A DNA stretch of 35,289 bases, from NCBI GenBank assembly GCA_023252215.1, contig JAHEXG010000008.1, positions 1 through 35,289 of the forward strand, written 5' to 3'. This document shows positions 1 through 6,364 of this stretch, one piece after another (within the stretch, counting starts at the first letter, position 1; each line of letters begins with the position of its first letter). Made by a program: the position numbers and the translations under genes. The DNA is from Candidatus Altarchaeales archaeon. GTDB lineage: Archaea > Altiarchaeota > Altiarchaeia > IMC4 > QMZM01. Under the pieces are notes generated by a model. The model was not told the DNA's origin, did no database searches, and saw only the letters and a program-made list of their open reading frames with translations.

Positions 1-2
1 TT

Positions 3-440
3 GAACGAACAGTCATGTTCCGTATACAGCAAGAATTTAATTCAAATTTTAAAAAGTGGTTTGGGATGCTTATAGACGACCCCACTAAAGAAGCAGAAAT
101 AAATGAAGAATTTACCCCGTTAATAAGACAAGATAGTGAAGATCAAGAAACAGACTTCCTTAGCGGTGGTGAAAAGACAAGCGTTGCCTTAGCATATCGA
201 CTTTCGCTCAATAGGATAGTAAAAAATATCTCAAAAGGAATGAATTCAAACTTATTGATACTTGATGAGCCCACAGATGGTTTCAGTAAGGAACAATTAT
301 TTAAAATGCGAGATATATTACAGGACCTGAACTGTCCTCAAACAATTATAGTTTCTCACGAGAAGGAACTAAGGGCGTTTGCGCAGAATGTTTTTGAAGT
401 AAAGAAGAGAATGAACGAATCAGTAATAATTCCTCAATAG
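3..440 (+). CDS. Rad50/SMC-like ATPase, C-terminal fragment cut by window edge
   Basis: The reading frame is open from base 3, so the gene starts left of the window; the first internal ATG (15) is probably not the start. About 145 residues are visible. They carry the C-terminal half of an ABC-type ATP-binding cassette: the signature FLSGGEKTSVALAYRLSLN, the Walker B with catalytic acid LLILDEPTDGFS, and the switch histidine in TIIVSHEKEL. This order is that of the C-terminal lobe of Rad50, SbcC and SMC-like proteins, which pair with the N-terminal Walker A lobe across a coiled coil and act on DNA ends. The next gene starts 61 bases later on the same strand. Base composition is AT-rich compared with the housekeeping genes further right, which fits an acquired island. 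It could be a defence-associated SMC-like ATPase rather than cellular Rad50; the missing N-terminus prevents a choice. Confidence 0.85.
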   Translation, partial: ERTVMFRIQQEFNSNFKKWFGMLIDDPTKEAEINEEFTPLIRQDSEDQETDFLSGGEKTSVALAYRLSLNRIVKNISKGMNSNLLILDEPTDGFSKEQLFKMRDILQDLNCPQTIIVSHEKELRAFAQNVFEVKKRMNESVIIPQ

Positions 441-501
441 ATAGGATATATGAAATAGCGGCGTTTCTAATCGATTTCTTAATAAGGCGGAAAACGATAA
501 A

Positions 502-990
502 ATGGATCGCTTTGTATCTGAAGAATTAGCCACTTTTGAAGACCCAAATGGAGGTTCTGGAGGTTACCAGCTAATCGAAAGAATACTTGCTTTGAGTGTA
601 TCAAAACTGTGGAAAGAGGCAAAGGAAGAATGGATTCACATAGATACATATTTTGCCGAGACATTGTCAGAAAGGAAAGCATGCACGTGTGGTCATTATC
701 CGATAAAAGAAATCTGCATAATTAAGAATATAAAGAATGAAAACGAGGCCATTGTCGGCAATTGTTGTATCCTAAGGTTTACCGAACAAGTTGATAAAAA
801 AGTGTTTAAGGCATTGTCTGAAAGAAGAATAAATCAAGCATTGATTAGTCTGGCATATAAAGATAATAAAATCAATTACAGGGAGAAAAATTTTCTACTT
901 GATGTCTGGAGGAAAAAGAGAATGACTTTAAAACAGAAATCATGGTTTAATAGTCTAAAGAATAGAATTTTTAGGGAATACATAAAATAG
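502..990 (+). CDS. Hypothetical protein with CxCG metal-site-like motif
   Basis: A 162-residue protein not assigned to a named family. The centre has ACTCGHYPIKEICIIKN followed about 20 residues later by VGNCCILRF. This gives two or more Cys pairs and a His in a pattern like a small zinc ribbon; similar CxCG...GxxC blocks occur in uncharacterised proteins of phage and accessory regions. The C-terminal third is basic and helical (many Lys/Arg, ending near WFNSLKNRIFREYIK), suggesting nucleic-acid contact. It follows the Rad50/SMC-like gene on the same strand and is probably co-transcribed. An attC-like palindrome lies 134 bases after its stop. The start at 502 is the first ATG after an AT-rich gap; only a weak purine stretch precedes it. 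Function unknown. Confidence 0.7.
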   Translation: MDRFVSEELATFEDPNGGSGGYQLIERILALSVSKLWKEAKEEWIHIDTYFAETLSERKACTCGHYPIKEICIIKNIKNENEAIVGNCCILRFTEQVDKKVFKALSERRINQALISLAYKDNKINYREKNFLLDVWRKKRMTLKQKSWFNSLKNRIFREYIK

Positions 991-1017
991 TGATTTTCTC
1001 TTCAGCGCACGGCCCCC

Positions 1018-1301
1018 CAACCCTAATTTTTGACGGAACTGGGGCAACAACACGGACGACCGGACGGGGGCGCATTTCCGAACTTCTCGTCGCCTCGCTG
1101 CGGCTCCTCGACCCTGATGGGGCGCATAACAGGCTTTTTACGGTTCGCTCCCTTCGGTCGCTCAGCCCAAATTAGCCCTTCGGGCTAACTTCGTAAAAAG
1201 CCGGACGTTATACGCAATTCGGAAACCCGGCCTCTTAGGGATACGTTGTAGCCTCAGTTCACGGACGAACGAATTTAGTTAAACGAGGGGGCGGGGGCGT
1301 C
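1018..1301. repeat. Composite repeat A: attC-like palindrome with flanking inverted arms
   Basis: This fills the gene-free stretch 991-1334. Three parts are visible. The left arm (about 1018-1123) matches the left arm of repeat B (about 4207-4311) in the same orientation, for example 1036-1051 against 4225-4240. The centre, 1124-1213, is a palindrome: GCATAAC (1124-1130), stem GGCTTTTTACG (1132-1142), stem CGTAAAAAGCC (1192-1202), GTTATAC (1207-1213), with an inner hairpin TTAGCCC-TTC-GGGCTAA (1172-1188). The right arm (about 1214-1301) is the reverse complement of left-arm sequence: 1245-1260 matches 4225-4240 inverted at 15 of 16 bases, and 1286-1301 matches 4198-4213 inverted at 15 of 16. 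The AAC...GTT box geometry resembles integron attC sites. A 61-codon reading frame inside it (990-1175) is repeat sequence, not a gene. Confidence 0.75.
1124..1213 (+). other. attC-like palindromic site A
   Basis: The 90-base palindrome has outer 7-base boxes ending in AAC (left) and starting with GTT (right), asymmetric spacers between the outer boxes and the 11-bp inner stem (1 base against 4), and a structured variable centre. Integron attC sites have this layout: an RYYYAAC box, a GTTRRRY box, extrahelical bases and a variable loop. Here the boxes are GCATAAC and GTTATAC, each deviating at one position from the strict consensus. No tyrosine integrase gene lies in the window. Resemblance is by eye; covariance-model scoring would decide. 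Confidence 0.5.
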
Positions 1302-1334
1302 ACGACGGACGACGCCTAACGAATATCGAGATAA

Positions 1335-2762
1335 TTAAACCCCACCTATTTTCCCTTTGAGTAAGGCAAATGCTATATTAAGACATTTATCAGCATCATT
1401 TTTTGTGATTTCTTTTTTGCTATTATGCGCTATGCTGTCTCTTTTCTTTTTCAATTCCTCGAAAGACCCATAGTCCTTGTCCTCCAATTTACCTGCTAAA
1501 TTAAGTATTTCAAGGGCATAATCAATGCTTCTATGTTGTAACTTTTCTTTCCTCTTATTTGTTGCTTTTTTTTCATTCAATAACTCCCCCAATTGCTCAG
1601 ATAAATATCCTTCAATTATGAGCCAACTCATGAATAGCGATTGTAGGTATTCTGAATGTCTAAAATGAGTATATGCTTCAAGAAGAAAGAGTAAGGAGTT
1701 ATCAAAAGCCGGATCTACCTTCTCTGTTTGTTGAATAATCGCTTTTAGCTTATTGTGAGGTATTTTAGAGCGTTTTAACGCTATATCCACAGGACCCATA
1801 TCCCATTTCTCCATCCCAAGATCGGTCCGCAATGTGGGTTGTCCACTCCAAGATTGACCTTTAATTTCCCATGTGTCACTGATTGTAAGGTTCTCTAACT
1901 CAGAGTCTCGTATAGTCTCGGTGGAAATGTCGTTAAACAGTAAAACCGCCATTATTTTATTGAGAATTTTCTTGGATGTTTCTTTATCATCCAAAACTAC
2001 ACCTATAAAGCCATCAACATTTACGATTACCTTCGCCCCGTTGTAGTCGACATCAAAAGATTTTTTGCAGTATTTTAAATAGCCGCCCACACCCATTTTC
2101 TCTCGGAAAGTTAACTGTGGAATTTCATCTATCCAAATTGGGGGGTAGAAATAAGTGCCAAAGCCCTGAACGGAGTTCTCTGTTGATTTTGGTTTCTGCT
2201 CTTTTTTAAATAACTCAGTTCTTTCCTTAGCTTCTTTAATAAGTCCATCAACAAAGGAAGATGCGTTTCTCTTCGTTATATCTCCCTTAATTAAACGAGC
2301 AAAACCGTGATTTTTTGTAATAGCCAGACCAAAAGAGTCTTGGGGGTTTTCATCGTGTTTTACGAACACATCCCCCTTTACTATTTTTACGATTTGTAGA
2401 AAAAATCCTTCTATAATTTTTCCATAGGTTTGATCCTGGTCTACAATGAGAAATTGCCCCTTATCTTCATCACTTAATTCTTTTTGCCATCTTCCTTCTT
2501 TCAATATTTCCTCGAAATGAGGGATAGCATCATAAATAGGTACTGCTTTATGGATTACAAAGTTCAAGTCATCCTCCCAAGTAAAGTGTGTTATTATTAT
2601 AACTTGATAAGTAGGATCTGTAAAGGATATAACCTCAATTTGACAGGGCGATAAGAAATTCCAAGAATTGCCTATTCTCTTCTGTTCTCCCTCTGAAAGT
2701 TTTTGATACTCATCTCTAAATAAAGAGATTACCTCTTCAAACCAATCTTTGATATTATCCAT
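1335..2762 (-). CDS. HEPN-domain protein of the AlbA/HEPN accessory pair
   Basis: A 475-residue protein. The last 110 residues look like a HEPN domain of the ApeA/RiboL type: a helical stretch from about residue 365 (LLFLLEAYTHFRHSEYLQSL), then KKKRDSIAHNSKK with the Rx4H motif at R441 and H446, and a closing helix. HEPN domains of this type are often metal-independent RNases in toxin-antitoxin, abortive-infection and CRISPR systems. The N-terminal 350 residues are mixed alpha/beta and not recognised. The gene is second in a minus-strand pair, starting 10 bases after the stop of the AlbA-type gene, so the two are almost surely co-expressed. It is clearly AT-rich against the window average. 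ATG at 2762 follows directly on the upstream stop; no strong ribosome site is seen. RNase activity is inferred from the motif alone. Confidence 0.7.
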   Translation of the reverse strand: MDNIKDWFEEVISLFRDEYQKLSEGEQKRIGNSWNFLSPCQIEVISFTDPTYQVIIITHFTWEDDLNFVIHKAVPIYDAIPHFEEILKEGRWQKELSDEDKGQFLIVDQDQTYGKIIEGFFLQIVKIVKGDVFVKHDENPQDSFGLAITKNHGFARLIKGDITKRNASSFVDGLIKEAKERTELFKKEQKPKSTENSVQGFGTYFYPPIWIDEIPQLTFREKMGVGGYLKYCKKSFDVDYNGAKVIVNVDGFIGVVLDDKETSKKILNKIMAVLLFNDISTETIRDSELENLTISDTWEIKGQSWSGQPTLRTDLGMEKWDMGPVDIALKRSKIPHNKLKAIIQQTEKVDPAFDNSLLFLLEAYTHFRHSEYLQSLFMSWLIIEGYLSEQLGELLNEKKATNKRKEKLQHRSIDYALEILNLAGKLEDKDYGSFEELKKKRDSIAHNSKKEITKNDADKCLNIAFALLKGKIGGV

Positions 2763-2772
2763 TATCCGTGTA

Positions 2773-4131
2773 TCACTGATCAGTAATTTCCCATCGTCCC
2801 CCTTTGGCTGGACCGATCCGTCTTATTATGCCTTTCTTCTTTAGCTTTGCCAGGTTATCCTCTGTTTTTCTTTGGGATATACCCACTTGTTCGGCTATCT
2901 CCCTTGCGGAAATATCCTCTTGTTTCCGGATCAGTTCTATTATCTTTTGCTGGTTTGGGGTCAGTTTTCCTCCGACCTTTTCTCCGACCTTTTCTCCGAC
3001 CTTTTCTCCGACCCTTTCAGGGACATAGTCCTCTGGAGCTTTTCTTTTGAACGTTGTTATGAATATGCCTGCGACCTCTTCGAAGGTTGTCTGTGGAGCT
3101 TTGGCTAAGATCAGTTCTATCCCGCGCCCCCATTTCTCGACCAGGTGTATCTTGTTGAACATGTCGGCTATCAGTTCGTTTCTTCTCTTGGAAACGCGCT
3201 TTGTCGTGATGTCTTTGATCGTAAGCCCACCGTATAGTCCTCCCGGGCTTCTTATTTCCAGGCGGTCGCGGAATATTGCAATGTTTACTGAGTCGTATTC
3301 GTGGTAGTCGCGGTGGCAGAATGCGTTTATTATGGCCTCTCTGAATGCGTCTTTGTCTATTTCCGGCATGTCCACGCGGTATAATCCTTCCAGTCTCATG
3401 CCGACGTTTATGTGTTCCAGCACATATTTCTGGGCAGTCTCGATCAAAGTGAATATATCCCCTGAATAGTCCTGCATGTCTATTGGAAAAGACGTATCCT
3501 TTGTGCCGAAGACCGCGCATCTTAGGCGGGCGTTTGGAAAGAACTTTTTAGGGTTTTTACCGAACAGTATCACAGCGGCATTCAAAATCTTTCTGTCGGA
3601 TAATAAGCCAAGCTTTTGAAGGGAGTTCTCAATCGTGTCAAATTTTAGACCCGCTTCTTTAAGGAACTTTCTAAGCTTCATCGGACTTATGTCCGCAAAA
3701 CCTGCCTTCTCGCATACGGCAGTATCCCAACGCAGCTTGTCCTTATTCTTATTAAGGATTATTTCTTCTATCTCCTTGGCCGAAAGCTGCCGATCCTCGT
3801 CAGCTACACGGATATATGCTCGACCATATGCATAATACGGCTTGTTGTTTCCTGAGAACTCGACCTTAATACAAATCTTACCATCTATATCCTCTTTAGA
3901 TATCTTGGGATAGATTCTCGGCTCAACGTTCTCCGAAATCGCCTGAGACACATCCCGTAAAGTCCTCTCCCCGACATCTTGGCCTAAGGCTTTGCCGTCG
4001 TTCCTTACACCAAAGTATAGAACACCTTTTCCGTGCTTGTTCAGCATCGAAGCTATTGAGATCACACCCTCCCGCAGTTCAGACGTGGACTTCTTAAGCT
4101 CCAAAGTCTCGGTCTCGGAAAGAACGGCCAT
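2773..4131 (-). CDS. AlbA_2/Schlafen-type ATPase-domain transcriptional regulator
   Basis: Predicted regulator of the COG2865 type, 452 residues from ATG 4131. The N-terminus has the AlbA_2/Schlafen fold signature (ETETLELKKSTSEL, then GKGVLYFGVRNDGKALG). The centre resembles the GHKL-like domain of this family (AIINAFCHRDYHEYDSVNIA, then a Gly-rich segment ending EKWGRGIELI). The C-terminus is a winged helix (ISAREIAEQVGISQRKTEDNLAKL). A VGEK tetrapeptide repeat encoded by 12-bp DNA repeats links the last two domains. The frame stays open up to 4239, but bases beyond about 4197 belong to repeat B, so those residues are unlikely to be conserved protein; TTG 4170 is an alternative start. The HEPN gene follows by 10 bases. 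In this family the AlbA domain is linked to nucleic-acid binding or cleavage; a defence role here is inference. Confidence 0.8.
   Translation of the reverse strand: MAVLSETETLELKKSTSELREGVISIASMLNKHGKGVLYFGVRNDGKALGQDVGERTLRDVSQAISENVEPRIYPKISKEDIDGKICIKVEFSGNNKPYYAYGRAYIRVADEDRQLSAKEIEEIILNKNKDKLRWDTAVCEKAGFADISPMKLRKFLKEAGLKFDTIENSLQKLGLLSDRKILNAAVILFGKNPKKFFPNARLRCAVFGTKDTSFPIDMQDYSGDIFTLIETAQKYVLEHINVGMRLEGLYRVDMPEIDKDAFREAIINAFCHRDYHEYDSVNIAIFRDRLEIRSPGGLYGGLTIKDITTKRVSKRRNELIADMFNKIHLVEKWGRGIELILAKAPQTTFEEVAGIFITTFKRKAPEDYVPERVGEKVGEKVGEKVGGKLTPNQQKIIELIRKQEDISAREIAEQVGISQRKTEDNLAKLKKKGIIRRIGPAKGGRWEITDQ
2966..3013 (-). repeat. 12-bp tandem repeat encoding VGEK linker
   Basis: Three perfect 12-base units (2978-2989, 2990-3001, 3002-3013 on plus, TTTTCTCCGACC) are followed by one degenerate unit. 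Read on minus they encode VGEK repeats between the ATPase-like and winged-helix domains. The in-frame unit length means copy-number change alters linker length without a frameshift. Confidence 0.9.
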
Positions 4132-4197
4132 TATGATATTTATTGCGTCTTGACGGTTTATATCCTCCAACAGAGTGATGGAAAAGTAAACGTTGCG

Positions 4198-4398
4198 GAC
4201 GCCCCCACCCCCTAATTTATGACGGAACTGAGGCAACAACCCAACGACGCCGAACGTCGGCCGCGTTTTTGAACTTCTCGTCGCCTGCGGGCTCCTCGAC
4301 CCTGAGGGGGCGCATAACAGGCTTTTTTACGGCTCGTTCGCTTCGCTCACTCGGCCCAAATGCCCTTCGGGCACTTCGTAAAAAGCCGGACGTTATCA
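4198..4398. repeat. Composite repeat B: left arm plus attC-like palindrome
   Basis: This fills most of the gene-free stretch 4132-4472. Bases 4207-4398 repeat the left arm and palindrome of repeat A (1018-1213) in the same orientation, with the best blocks at 4225-4240, around 4271-4318 and 4377-4396. Bases 4198-4213 and 4225-4240 also match the right arm of repeat A inverted. There is no right arm here: sequence after 4398 is unrelated to 1214-1301. The segment 1207-4318 is therefore bounded by imperfect inverted repeats of about 110 bp, and the palindromes are direct repeats about 3.19 kb apart. The remainder, 4399-4472, shows nothing beyond an A-rich tract. Confidence 0.75.
4312..4398 (+). 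other. attC-like palindromic site B
   Basis: The same plan as site A: GCATAAC (4312-4318), stem GGCTTTTTTACG (4320-4331), stem CGTAAAAAGCC (4377-4387), GTTATCA (4392-4398). The inner hairpin is TGCCC-TTC-GGGCA (4361-4373), against TTAGCCC-TTC-GGGCTAA in site A. The paired bases changed together, so the stem rather than the sequence appears conserved. Divergence resumes just inside the last box, as expected if recombination occurs at GTT. Confidence 0.5.
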
Positions 4399-4472
4399 GA
4401 ATTATCACTTGGCATTCTTTTGTCCGGGCCGGGTTACATCAAGAAAAATAAAAAAAGAAAAAGACGCGGATC

Positions 4473-5765
4473 TCAGCACGAGCCCGTCGTAGACAGTCCG
4501 CCGGTGGACGCGTTCAGCGTTACGTCGCATCCTTTCAGGCCTGTGTTGTATTTGCAGAGGTTTTGTTTTACGGTTTCTGCGTCTATGGCGCTGAATTCGT
4601 AGCGGTTGTTGGCGAGCCAGGTGGGCGAGGATCCTATGTCCAGGGAGTTGGCTATCTTTATGTCGGTGCTTAGTAGTTCTTTGCCTTTGGTTCCGTTGAC
4701 GCATTTCTCGACTGTTTTAACCGCTACCGTGCTTATTCCGGCCTCGTTTGCGCAGGTGTGCCAGTCGATGCCTTTGACGCCGTTTGTGCTTCTGCAGTTT
4801 ATGTAGTCCAGCCATTCGTCCGGGCTGTATTCTTTTACGCATAGCTGTACTATGTCTTCGTCTACTTCGTATTGGCCGTGCAGGCTGCTGAATGCGCCTC
4901 CTTGTTCGTTCGCTATGTAGTGCACGTCGTAGGTTACGGCGTCTCCGAAGTTGTCAACTGCCTGTTTTAGCGCCGTTATTGCCTGTTTTCCGTAGGGGCA
5001 GTCGCTCATCACAAAGACCTGTATGTCGTTCTTGGTTGCGTTTCTGCATACCAGTTTGTCCTTGCAGCCAGGGTCATTGCAGTCCACTAGGCCGTTTGCG
5101 TCATCGTCTATGCCGTTGTCGCATATCTCGGCCGCAGGGTCGAAAGATGCGCCGATCCTCAGGGACTGGTATTTGCCCGCGGGCTCCAGGTAGTCTTGTA
5201 TCTGTGAATAGTTTTTGGCGTTCTTGACGTCGTCTGAGAACATTATCGCAGGCAGGTATTTTATCTGGGCGTCGGCGTATAGTTTCTTTCCTTCCGTTGT
5301 TCCGTAGTCTATGTTTGTCGTGGTCAGGCCGGGGAAAACGCCGGACAACTGGGTTATTACGTCGTTTACAAAGACGCATTCGGTGCAGCGCTTGTCGTTC
5401 AGTACGACGACGCTCACCTTCTGAGTCGAATCTGTAAAGAGAGTTGTGGGTGGAAGTGTCTGCGCCGTAGTTATCACAGTTATTGGAGATGTGTTGTTCG
5501 AGGAATCGTTGTATACTATCAGCCCTGTAACCTTGTTCAGGGAAGAGATCTTTCCTCCTAGGACGTTGATCTGGGCGATGGAGTAGACATTCAGGAGCAG
5601 GACCGCCACGGCAAGACCGATTACTAGGTATTGCATGGTATTCTTCGGCGTTTCTTCCATGTCTTTTCCGCGGGTAGCTTCTTCCACGACAGAATCAAAG
5701 CTGTTGTCGCTCTCAATCAAAGCATCTTTTGTATCTTTATCTGTGTTTTTTGTTTCTTCATCCAT
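4473..5765 (-). CDS. Membrane-anchored protein with two thioredoxin-like domains and a Ca-binding-like insert
   Basis: A 430-residue protein. The acidic N-terminus (about 1-42) is cytosolic, followed by one membrane helix (about 45-65, YLVIGLAVAVLLLNVYSIAQI), so the rest should face outward. The first thioredoxin-like domain has a CTEC site in VVLNDKRCTECVFV. Then comes ICDNGIDDDANGLVDCNDPGC, the Asp-rich Cys-flanked loop common in secreted proteins and read as a Ca-binding segment. The second thioredoxin-like domain has SDCPYGKQA, where the second Cys of CxxC is Gly, and HGQYEVDEDIVQLC, reminiscent of the GILT thiol-reductase family. Further Cys residues (CRSTNGVKGIDWHTC, ending STTGSC) suggest disulfides. 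A likely role is extracytoplasmic thiol exchange. The start is set by GAGGTGAGG nine bases before ATG 5765; a TATA-like box lies at 5796-5806. Confidence 0.75.
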   Translation of the reverse strand: MDEETKNTDKDTKDALIESDNSFDSVVEEATRGKDMEETPKNTMQYLVIGLAVAVLLLNVYSIAQINVLGGKISSLNKVTGLIVYNDSSNNTSPITVITTAQTLPPTTLFTDSTQKVSVVVLNDKRCTECVFVNDVITQLSGVFPGLTTTNIDYGTTEGKKLYADAQIKYLPAIMFSDDVKNAKNYSQIQDYLEPAGKYQSLRIGASFDPAAEICDNGIDDDANGLVDCNDPGCKDKLVCRNATKNDIQVFVMSDCPYGKQAITALKQAVDNFGDAVTYDVHYIANEQGGAFSSLHGQYEVDEDIVQLCVKEYSPDEWLDYINCRSTNGVKGIDWHTCANEAGISTVAVKTVEKCVNGTKGKELLSTDIKIANSLDIGSSPTWLANNRYEFSAIDAETVKQNLCKYNTGLKGCDVTLNASTGGLSTTGSC

Positions 5766-5795
5766 TTTTCAGGCCTCACCTCGACCAAATAAGAA

Positions 5796-5806
5796 TATAT
5801 TATACA
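5796..5806 (-). promoter_or_regulatory. TATA-like box for the thioredoxin-domain gene
   Basis: Read on minus the sequence is TATAATATATT, 31-41 bases before ATG 5765, which would leave a short leader carrying the Shine-Dalgarno GAGGTGAGG. By eye only. Confidence 0.4.
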
Positions 5807-5890
5807 TTTGCTGCAAAAAAGCCATATAGTTTAGGAATGTAGAGGAATTAGAGGAATATGTGCAGAAGTAGAATATAGAATGCAACAACA

Positions 5891-6364
5891 TCAGACTCCG
5901 AAAAGCCGGGGTATGGTCTGGCCCAGGAAATTGCTGGCCACGAGCACTGTAACGGCCACGGTCAGGTGTTCGGCGGTCTCCCGGAAGGGGCTGGATTTAT
6001 GGTAGATAGCAATGAAATAGCTGAGCAGGCATAGAAGCGCCATGCCGATTATTATGCAGGCAGGAACCGCGTATTGCATGGGCAGGAATAATACCAGGAA
6101 TATGAAGAGCATGGTTATTGCAACCCGGGTCAGAAAATTACTGAAGGTATAGACTTCGGAATGCTTGCATACGGGATACTGCGATTCCCGGTATATGTGT
6201 ATCCCCAGCGAATCAGAGATGTTGTCTGCGAAGGCTATCACAAGCAACGCGGGAATGATGCTCATCTTGGGGTTCACGGCGGATTCCAGGCCGACGATCA
6301 ACGCCAGGCTGGTGATGATCGCAGACGTTGCGCCGAAGGAATATTTGCTTAGGTCCTGCGCCAA
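5891..6364 (-). CDS. VIT/CCC1-like small membrane protein
   Basis: A 157-residue membrane protein with about five hydrophobic helices. The opening KYSFGATSAIITSLALIVGL resembles the first helix of VIT1/CCC1 vacuolar iron and manganese transporters, and ADNISDSLGIHIYRESQ follows the second helix. The usual metal-binding cytosolic helical domain of VIT proteins is absent, so this is a short variant and transport of iron or manganese is only a guess. The frame has an upstream stop 36 bases before and no ATG, so TTG at 6364 is the only common start codon. An AGGTGAT motif lies about 33 bases upstream, too far to serve it well. The MscS-like gene ends 71 bases from it on the same strand. Confidence 0.6.
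   Translation of the reverse strand: MAQDLSKYSFGATSAIITSLALIVGLESAVNPKMSIIPALLVIAFADNISDSLGIHIYRESQYPVCKHSEVYTFSNFLTRVAITMLFIFLVLFLPMQYAVPACIIIGMALLCLLSYFIAIYHKSSPFRETAEHLTVAVTVLVASNFLGQTIPRLFGV

Follow-up and report, generated by a model that had tools for sequence, protein, structure and literature searches.

A gene cassette of a probable integron-like system with hairpin recombination sites and Xer-type integrases in an Altiarchaeota genome

Positions 1208-4393 of the window (the whole stretch of DNA analyzed here, 35,289 nt) most probably constitute one gene cassette of an integron-like system that is found widely in archaea, a reading to which we assign a probability of approximately 0.85. 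Its architecture, the exact boundaries, the covariation of the hairpin sites, the presence of attI beside integrases and the occurrence of homologous cassettes at different addresses can all be read from the sequence itself.

Organization and boundaries of the unit

The first 6 kb of the window contain the following features.

1-1207, plus strand: 3' part of an upstream cassette that is truncated at the contig end and closes in hairpin 1
15-440, plus strand: open reading frame, PADLOC mad3 (5.6e-16), weak SMC_N
502-990, plus strand: open reading frame without a match
1012-1121, plus strand: conserved arm 5' of hairpin 1, in the 84% direct repeat; similar copies on C32 and C54
1122-1214, plus strand: attC-like hairpin 1, crossover G1207^T1208; covariance model R2, 89.3 bits
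1208-1219, plus strand: 12-nt cassette-start arm TTATACGCAATT, conserved across 58 sites just past the crossover
1208-4393, plus strand: complete gene cassette, 3186 bp, between two crossovers
1208-1320, plus strand: cassette 5' end, an imperfect inverted copy of the 3' arm
1335-2762, minus strand: 475-aa protein, weak AbiV (HEPN-type) similarity (PADLOC E 0.0015)
2773-4131, minus strand: AlbA_2/Schlafen, HATPase_c_4 and winged-helix protein (SLFN_AlbA_2 7e-17, HATPase_c_4 1.4e-20)
4201-4309, plus strand: conserved arm 5' of hairpin 2, in the 84% direct repeat
4310-4399, plus strand: attC-like hairpin 2, which closes the cassette; crossover G4393^T4394; R1 104 bits, R2 81.7 bits
4394-5765: array end and start of flanking DNA, no further hairpin
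4473-5765, minus strand: GILT-domain gene (PF03227, 8.4e-9)

As described in the initial annotation, direct repeats lie about 3.19 kb apart: 1012-1211 aligns with 4201-4396 at 84% identity, the offset staying at about 3188 throughout, and the local alignment score is 704 compared with 251 for the best of 200 shuffles. The inverted ends are also real. The reverse complement of 1208-1320 aligns with 4186-4318 with a score of 166, against 87 ± 13 for dinucleotide shuffles (0 of 1000 as high), and both of the inverted blocks originally proposed are present, namely 1245-1260 with 4225-4240 (94%) and a second one inside 1280-1301 and 4198-4219 (86%). An independent homologous unit with the same ends, C54 10884-14054, gives an inverted-end score of 174 against 80 ± 13, again with 0 of 1000 shuffles as high. 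However, the span 1207-4318 that was assigned to the unit does not hold, as the real boundary runs from G1207^T1208 to G4393^T4394. Likewise, each of the palindromes (1122-1214 and 4310-4399) is a complete hairpin site that closes a cassette. Because the hairpin closes a cassette, the present one starts only at 1208, and 1012-1207 is part of the one before it. The original observation of the repeats is confirmed, and its interpretation was right in part.

The two minus-strand genes had been taken for an AlbA/HEPN pair; the AlbA assignment stands, whereas the HEPN assignment is weak, and a Pfam search with the 475-aa protein gave no match. The AlbA gene likely starts at the ATG at 4131, judging from the sequence and the C54 homologue, which gives a protein of approximately 452 aa; an alternative TTG start at 4239 falls within the repeat. 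A tandem 12-bp repeat, TTTTCTCCGACC, is present at 2966-3013 in this gene. The open reading frame at 15-440 encodes a protein truncated at the contig end, and mad3 belongs to the MADS defence system. A scan of the whole 35,289-nt stretch with the hairpin model gave no match beyond hairpin 2, a search of 1-6000 against Rfam revealed no RNA family, and no tRNA target was found in the stretch.

Sequence and fold of the hairpin

Each cassette ends in a hairpin of about 90 nt that joins the next cassette at CG^TTA and consists, in order, of an R''-like box (CATAACA), an L stem, a tip (CCCAAAT...ACTTCG) and an R'-like box (CG^TTA). The copies are conserved on the left up to ...CGTTAT and the right-hand sequence differs from copy to copy, which indicates that the hairpin is the site where different right-hand sequences were joined. 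A 12-nt arm, TTATRCGMAATT, is conserved after the crossover, with the information at background from base 13 on (58 sites); in length it resembles a Xer arm, and ACTTCGTWAAA in the hairpin can be read as its inverted partner. Automatic reading found G-T-T at the crossover of 58 of the 64 sites. The R' box does not follow GTTRRRY, the fifth base being T in 45 of 58 crossovers, and GTTAGGC/GCCTAAC boxes are present in a minority of sites.

Across 45 aligned sequences, pairing in the L stem reaches 92.5%, and 10 of its 11 pairs show double-sided change. Covariation over the whole structure is 0.405; shuffling lowers it to 0.141, and sliding to 0.106 or less. Of the 61 sites whose strands differ in stability, 55 have the stabler fold on the bottom strand and 6 on the top; the bottom strand of hairpin 1 folds with a z of -4.5, versus -2.5 for the top. 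The hairpin has an asymmetric internal loop, and the bulges of the L stem vary between sites.

It is rather unlikely, in our estimate, that the cassettes are real but recombine through double-stranded sites, the hairpin being incidental or a terminator with no folded single strand involved. Such a reading would suit enzymes without the IntI-specific insertion, in which the I2 helix lies; however, the compensatory change in the L stem and the stability of the bottom strand point to selection on the folded strand.

Integrases and attI sites

The sole recombinase of the phage-integrase family (PF00589) in this genome is the 285-aa protein encoded on C62, and related integrases in other genomes comprise 270 or about 350 aa. 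The ~350-aa enzymes (G026:C2 699-1757; L083, L085 and L079) are extended at the N-terminus by a domain of about 65 residues that has no clear Pfam match and that we take to resemble HARP-like domains. A complete unit is found on G026:C2, where the integrase (699-1757) and an attI-like palindrome are accompanied by seven hairpins (at 4552, 5473, 7727, 8461, 9575, 10243 and 10791), neighbours being separated by one or two genes. Palindromes ending in G^TT are located just downstream of the ~350-aa enzymes (G013:C49, G013:C11 and G008:C121) and upstream of several 270- to 285-aa enzymes (C62 of this genome, G005, G015 and G108). In G015, G008, G005 and G108, of which G108 is outside the phylum, an integrase lies within about 0.25-0.7 kb of a hairpin. 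The first cassette follows attI beside the integrase in several genomes, as is classical for attI. A cassette start TTAGTTTCAATTTTTGAGAATGCCTACAAG follows attI beside the integrase in G134 (L172), and the same start lies downstream of the integrase in G174 (L177).

In this genome, attI lies at the start of the C62 integrase gene, and copies that are 85-90% identical are situated at array starts on three other contigs. The attI-like copies, at least four with three away from the integrase, are as follows.

C62, 12113-12175
C86, 26755-26826
C11, 22588-22657
C8, 18059-18123

One of these copies directly follows a hydrogenase gene, and another follows a uvrA-like gene. Additionally, the C54 unit begins at a diverged version of attI. 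The C62 contig, scanned with the hairpin model, contains attI and no detectable hairpin. In one set of 24 hairpin-bearing genomes, 13 have no recombinase above the cut-off; several of these genomes are incomplete.

With the XerA_Arch model (cut-off 220 bits), four enzymes score 234.7-241.8 bits, including 234.7 for the C62 enzyme, and those of G015 and G008 score 226 and 199. With the integron-integrase model TIGR02249, all six enzymes tested fall below the cut-off (175-229 versus 265 bits), and the alignment to the V. cholerae IntI (2a3v) breaks at residues 171-248, where 78 aa face 36 in the query. On these comparisons, the array enzymes lack the IntI-specific insertion (the I2 helix region). 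In a structure model of moderate confidence (pLDDT 78, pTM 0.55), only short strands are present between H230-243 and H261-274; its best PDB matches are 2a3v and XerAs at TM values of about 0.4-0.55, and the model therefore adds little.

These enzymes could instead belong to the host, in which case the cassettes would be IMEX-like elements that use the chromosomal XerA, and the attI-like palindromes would be dif or dif mimics. The only PF00589 recombinase here does pass XerA_Arch (234.7 versus 220 bits), the conserved right arm is Xer-sized, and hairpin-mediated Xer integration is known from CTXphi (PMC7790495). We nevertheless regard this as improbable, in that the ordered integrase-attI-cassette layout is the layout of an integron, a ~350-aa integrase accompanies the arrays in other genomes, and attI occurs in several copies, unlike the single dif. 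No dif was identified in this genome. In part, the difference from the integron-like reading is one of naming.

Very improbable, in our view, is that these are ordinary integron cassettes (CALIN) whose usual mover, a canonical IntI, is missing from these genomes or was not sampled in them. The overall architecture is the same, archaeal CALINs and IntIs have been published, with most of those archaeal integrons lacking an IntI (PMC9668308), and the minority of sites with GTTAGGC/GCCTAAC boxes would fit. However, the array enzymes are below the TIGR02249 cut-off and without the IntI-specific insertion, T stands in 45 of 58 crossovers where GTTRRRY needs a purine, and attI adjoins the Xer-like enzymes in several lineages. 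Of the classical features, attI by the integrase, a co-oriented array and a foldable attC with the bottom strand favoured are present, and the IntI-specific insertion and GTTRRRY are absent; the system is therefore described as integron-like and not as a plain member of the integrons.

Distribution and mobility of the cassettes

This genome contains 11 full hairpins according to the covariance model and 14 blast matches to the repeat family. The hairpin model matches 21 of 29 genomes of this archaeal phylum, and in a wider set hairpins are found in 38 of 198 archaeal genomes, 21 of which are outside the phylum; the genomes compared are mostly MAGs. A search of viral contigs with the hairpin pattern gave 0 matches. 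Contamination is unlikely for the site family because the C32 site has archaeal-type ribosomal and RNA-polymerase genes next to it, and the C36 site a thermosome gene (by reading). The hairpin pattern also matches a MAG labelled Methanocellales STD1_76 (L024; 82.5 bits with the model) and one labelled Marinilabiliales BM718 (L025; no model match), and these matches represent transfer, mis-binning or chance.

Neighbouring hairpins are on one strand in 24 of the 24 pairs analyzed, and the intervals between them usually hold one or a few open reading frames, which fill 53-96% of the interval (at least 75% in all but one of the 24 pairs). The genes of the 1208-4393 unit and the cassette genes of C86 are oriented opposite to their arrays, unlike those of the typical integron cassette.

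Looking in related genomes for the same ends around other genes, as had been suggested, revealed many more hairpins, and the arms are not confined to one fixed region, given that the 11 hairpins here enclose different genes. A 2.26-kb cassette is common to G015 and G026 (76.5%), with homology from the 12-nt arm through the R'' box and different stems beyond. In L106 and L107, the 5' ends of homologous cassettes come after attI, in L122 and L124 after hairpins, and the alignments begin at the first base after G (base 1). On such comparative grounds the cassettes count as mobile, related ones being found at different addresses with the homology beginning at the crossover. The initial suspicion of a mobile unit without its own recombinase was borne out, as a cassette that would be moved in trans. 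The search for an empty site, also proposed at the outset, yielded orthologues without cassettes but no clean empty site, because the downstream gene order differs in relatives: orthologues of the C86 hydrogenase gene in G001 (same genus) and G015 lack cassettes, but the order downstream is different, and orthologues of carB (C54) in relatives show no clean empty site.

A transposon or MITE with inverted terminal repeats of about 110 bp, to which the collinear inverted ends had seemed to point, was rejected as extremely improbable, since the ends are unequal, just one of them carrying a hairpin, several units abut head to tail at common boundaries and domain searches detected no transposase domain in the 1208-4393 unit; the transposon-like, nested description was wrong in kind, and the unit is an integron-type cassette between hairpin recombination sites.

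Cargo genes

On the contig studied here, the cargo consists of the AlbA and 475-aa proteins, with the mad3-like fragment upstream. Two AlbA proteins are carried on C54, an XcyI-type restriction system within a hydrogenase operon on C86 and a dGTPase on C8, and DpnII-type restriction genes are located beside the C36 site. The cargo in other genomes is mixed (FkbM methyltransferase, amine oxidase, ParA and DUF998). For the most part, the cargo of this genome is defence-like (Schlafen-AlbA, restriction-modification and dGTPase) and by homology would be mainly antiviral, and the AlbA/475-aa genes are likely a virus-defence pair.

Proposed mechanism

A cassette has the 12-bp recombinase arm TTATRCGMAATT first and the hairpin last. 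The cassettes would circularize, and in the circular form the long inverted ends would flank the hairpin and lengthen its stem. A Xer-like tyrosine integrase would then join the hairpin of the circular cassette either to the palindromic attI or to the hairpin of a cassette already in place, in each case at G^TT, and repeated joining would build arrays with all hairpins pointing one way. The resident integrase may carry out this reaction, namely the C62 protein (285 aa) here and its 270-aa or ~350-aa relative elsewhere, with the folded bottom strand as the probable substrate; the cargo would then serve in defence. Since arrays at several chromosomal loci begin with a copy of attI, a single integrase would act in trans on many platforms.

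We tentatively consider it possible that this is a distinct integron class of many archaeal lineages, in which Xer-type integrases without I2 recombine folded single-stranded hairpins and one integrase serves several dispersed attI platforms with defence genes, as either a living Xer-to-integron transition or an independent invention.

Relation to known systems

The archaeal integrons reported by Ghaly et al. in 2022 (PMC9668308) are also arrays of folded-site cassettes in archaeal MAGs with attI by the integrase, many of them without an integrase and with restriction and methylation cargo. Their IntIs, however, have the IntI-specific domain around patch III, which the enzymes described here lack, and the present sites are mostly non-GTTRRRY, with a conserved 12-nt start and hairpin tip and with attI at multiple loci. 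Some attC clusters of that study could be of the present kind. Bacterial chromosomal integrons (IntI/attI/attC) share the G^TT crossover, the hairpin with R and L boxes, the same-strand arrays, the bottom-strand bias and the integrase with attI at one end, whereas no I2-bearing integrase is present here and the spacer, roughly symmetric in those integrons, is asymmetric (about 1 nt versus 4 nt).

The C62 and related enzymes resemble archaeal XerA (PDB 4a8e and 5hxy) in that they pass XerA_Arch or score near it and align continuously across the catalytic domain; unlike in XerA, attI and hairpin arrays adjoin the gene, and one subtype has the additional N-terminal domain of ~65 residues. In IMEX/CTXphi-type integration, a Xer-type enzyme acts on a hairpin, as would be the case here, but those are single phage-like elements at dif, in contrast to cassette arrays with attI and many cargo genes. 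A search of mainly open-access literature, bioRxiv excepted, found no paper on an integron with XerA-type enzymes.

The I2 helix docks extrahelical bases of attC, and integron integrases are thought to have passed from double- to single-strand recombination by gaining this helix, possibly in a Xer-like ancestor (PMC7790495). With Xer-like enzymes that lack the I2 insertion and are accompanied by attI and folded sites, this idea becomes directly testable. The system bears on the origin of integrons from Xer recombinases and may be a separate or ancestral form of the integron, and it suggests that the capture of genes in cassettes, here antiviral ones, is commoner in archaea than surveys based on IntI and canonical attC would show.
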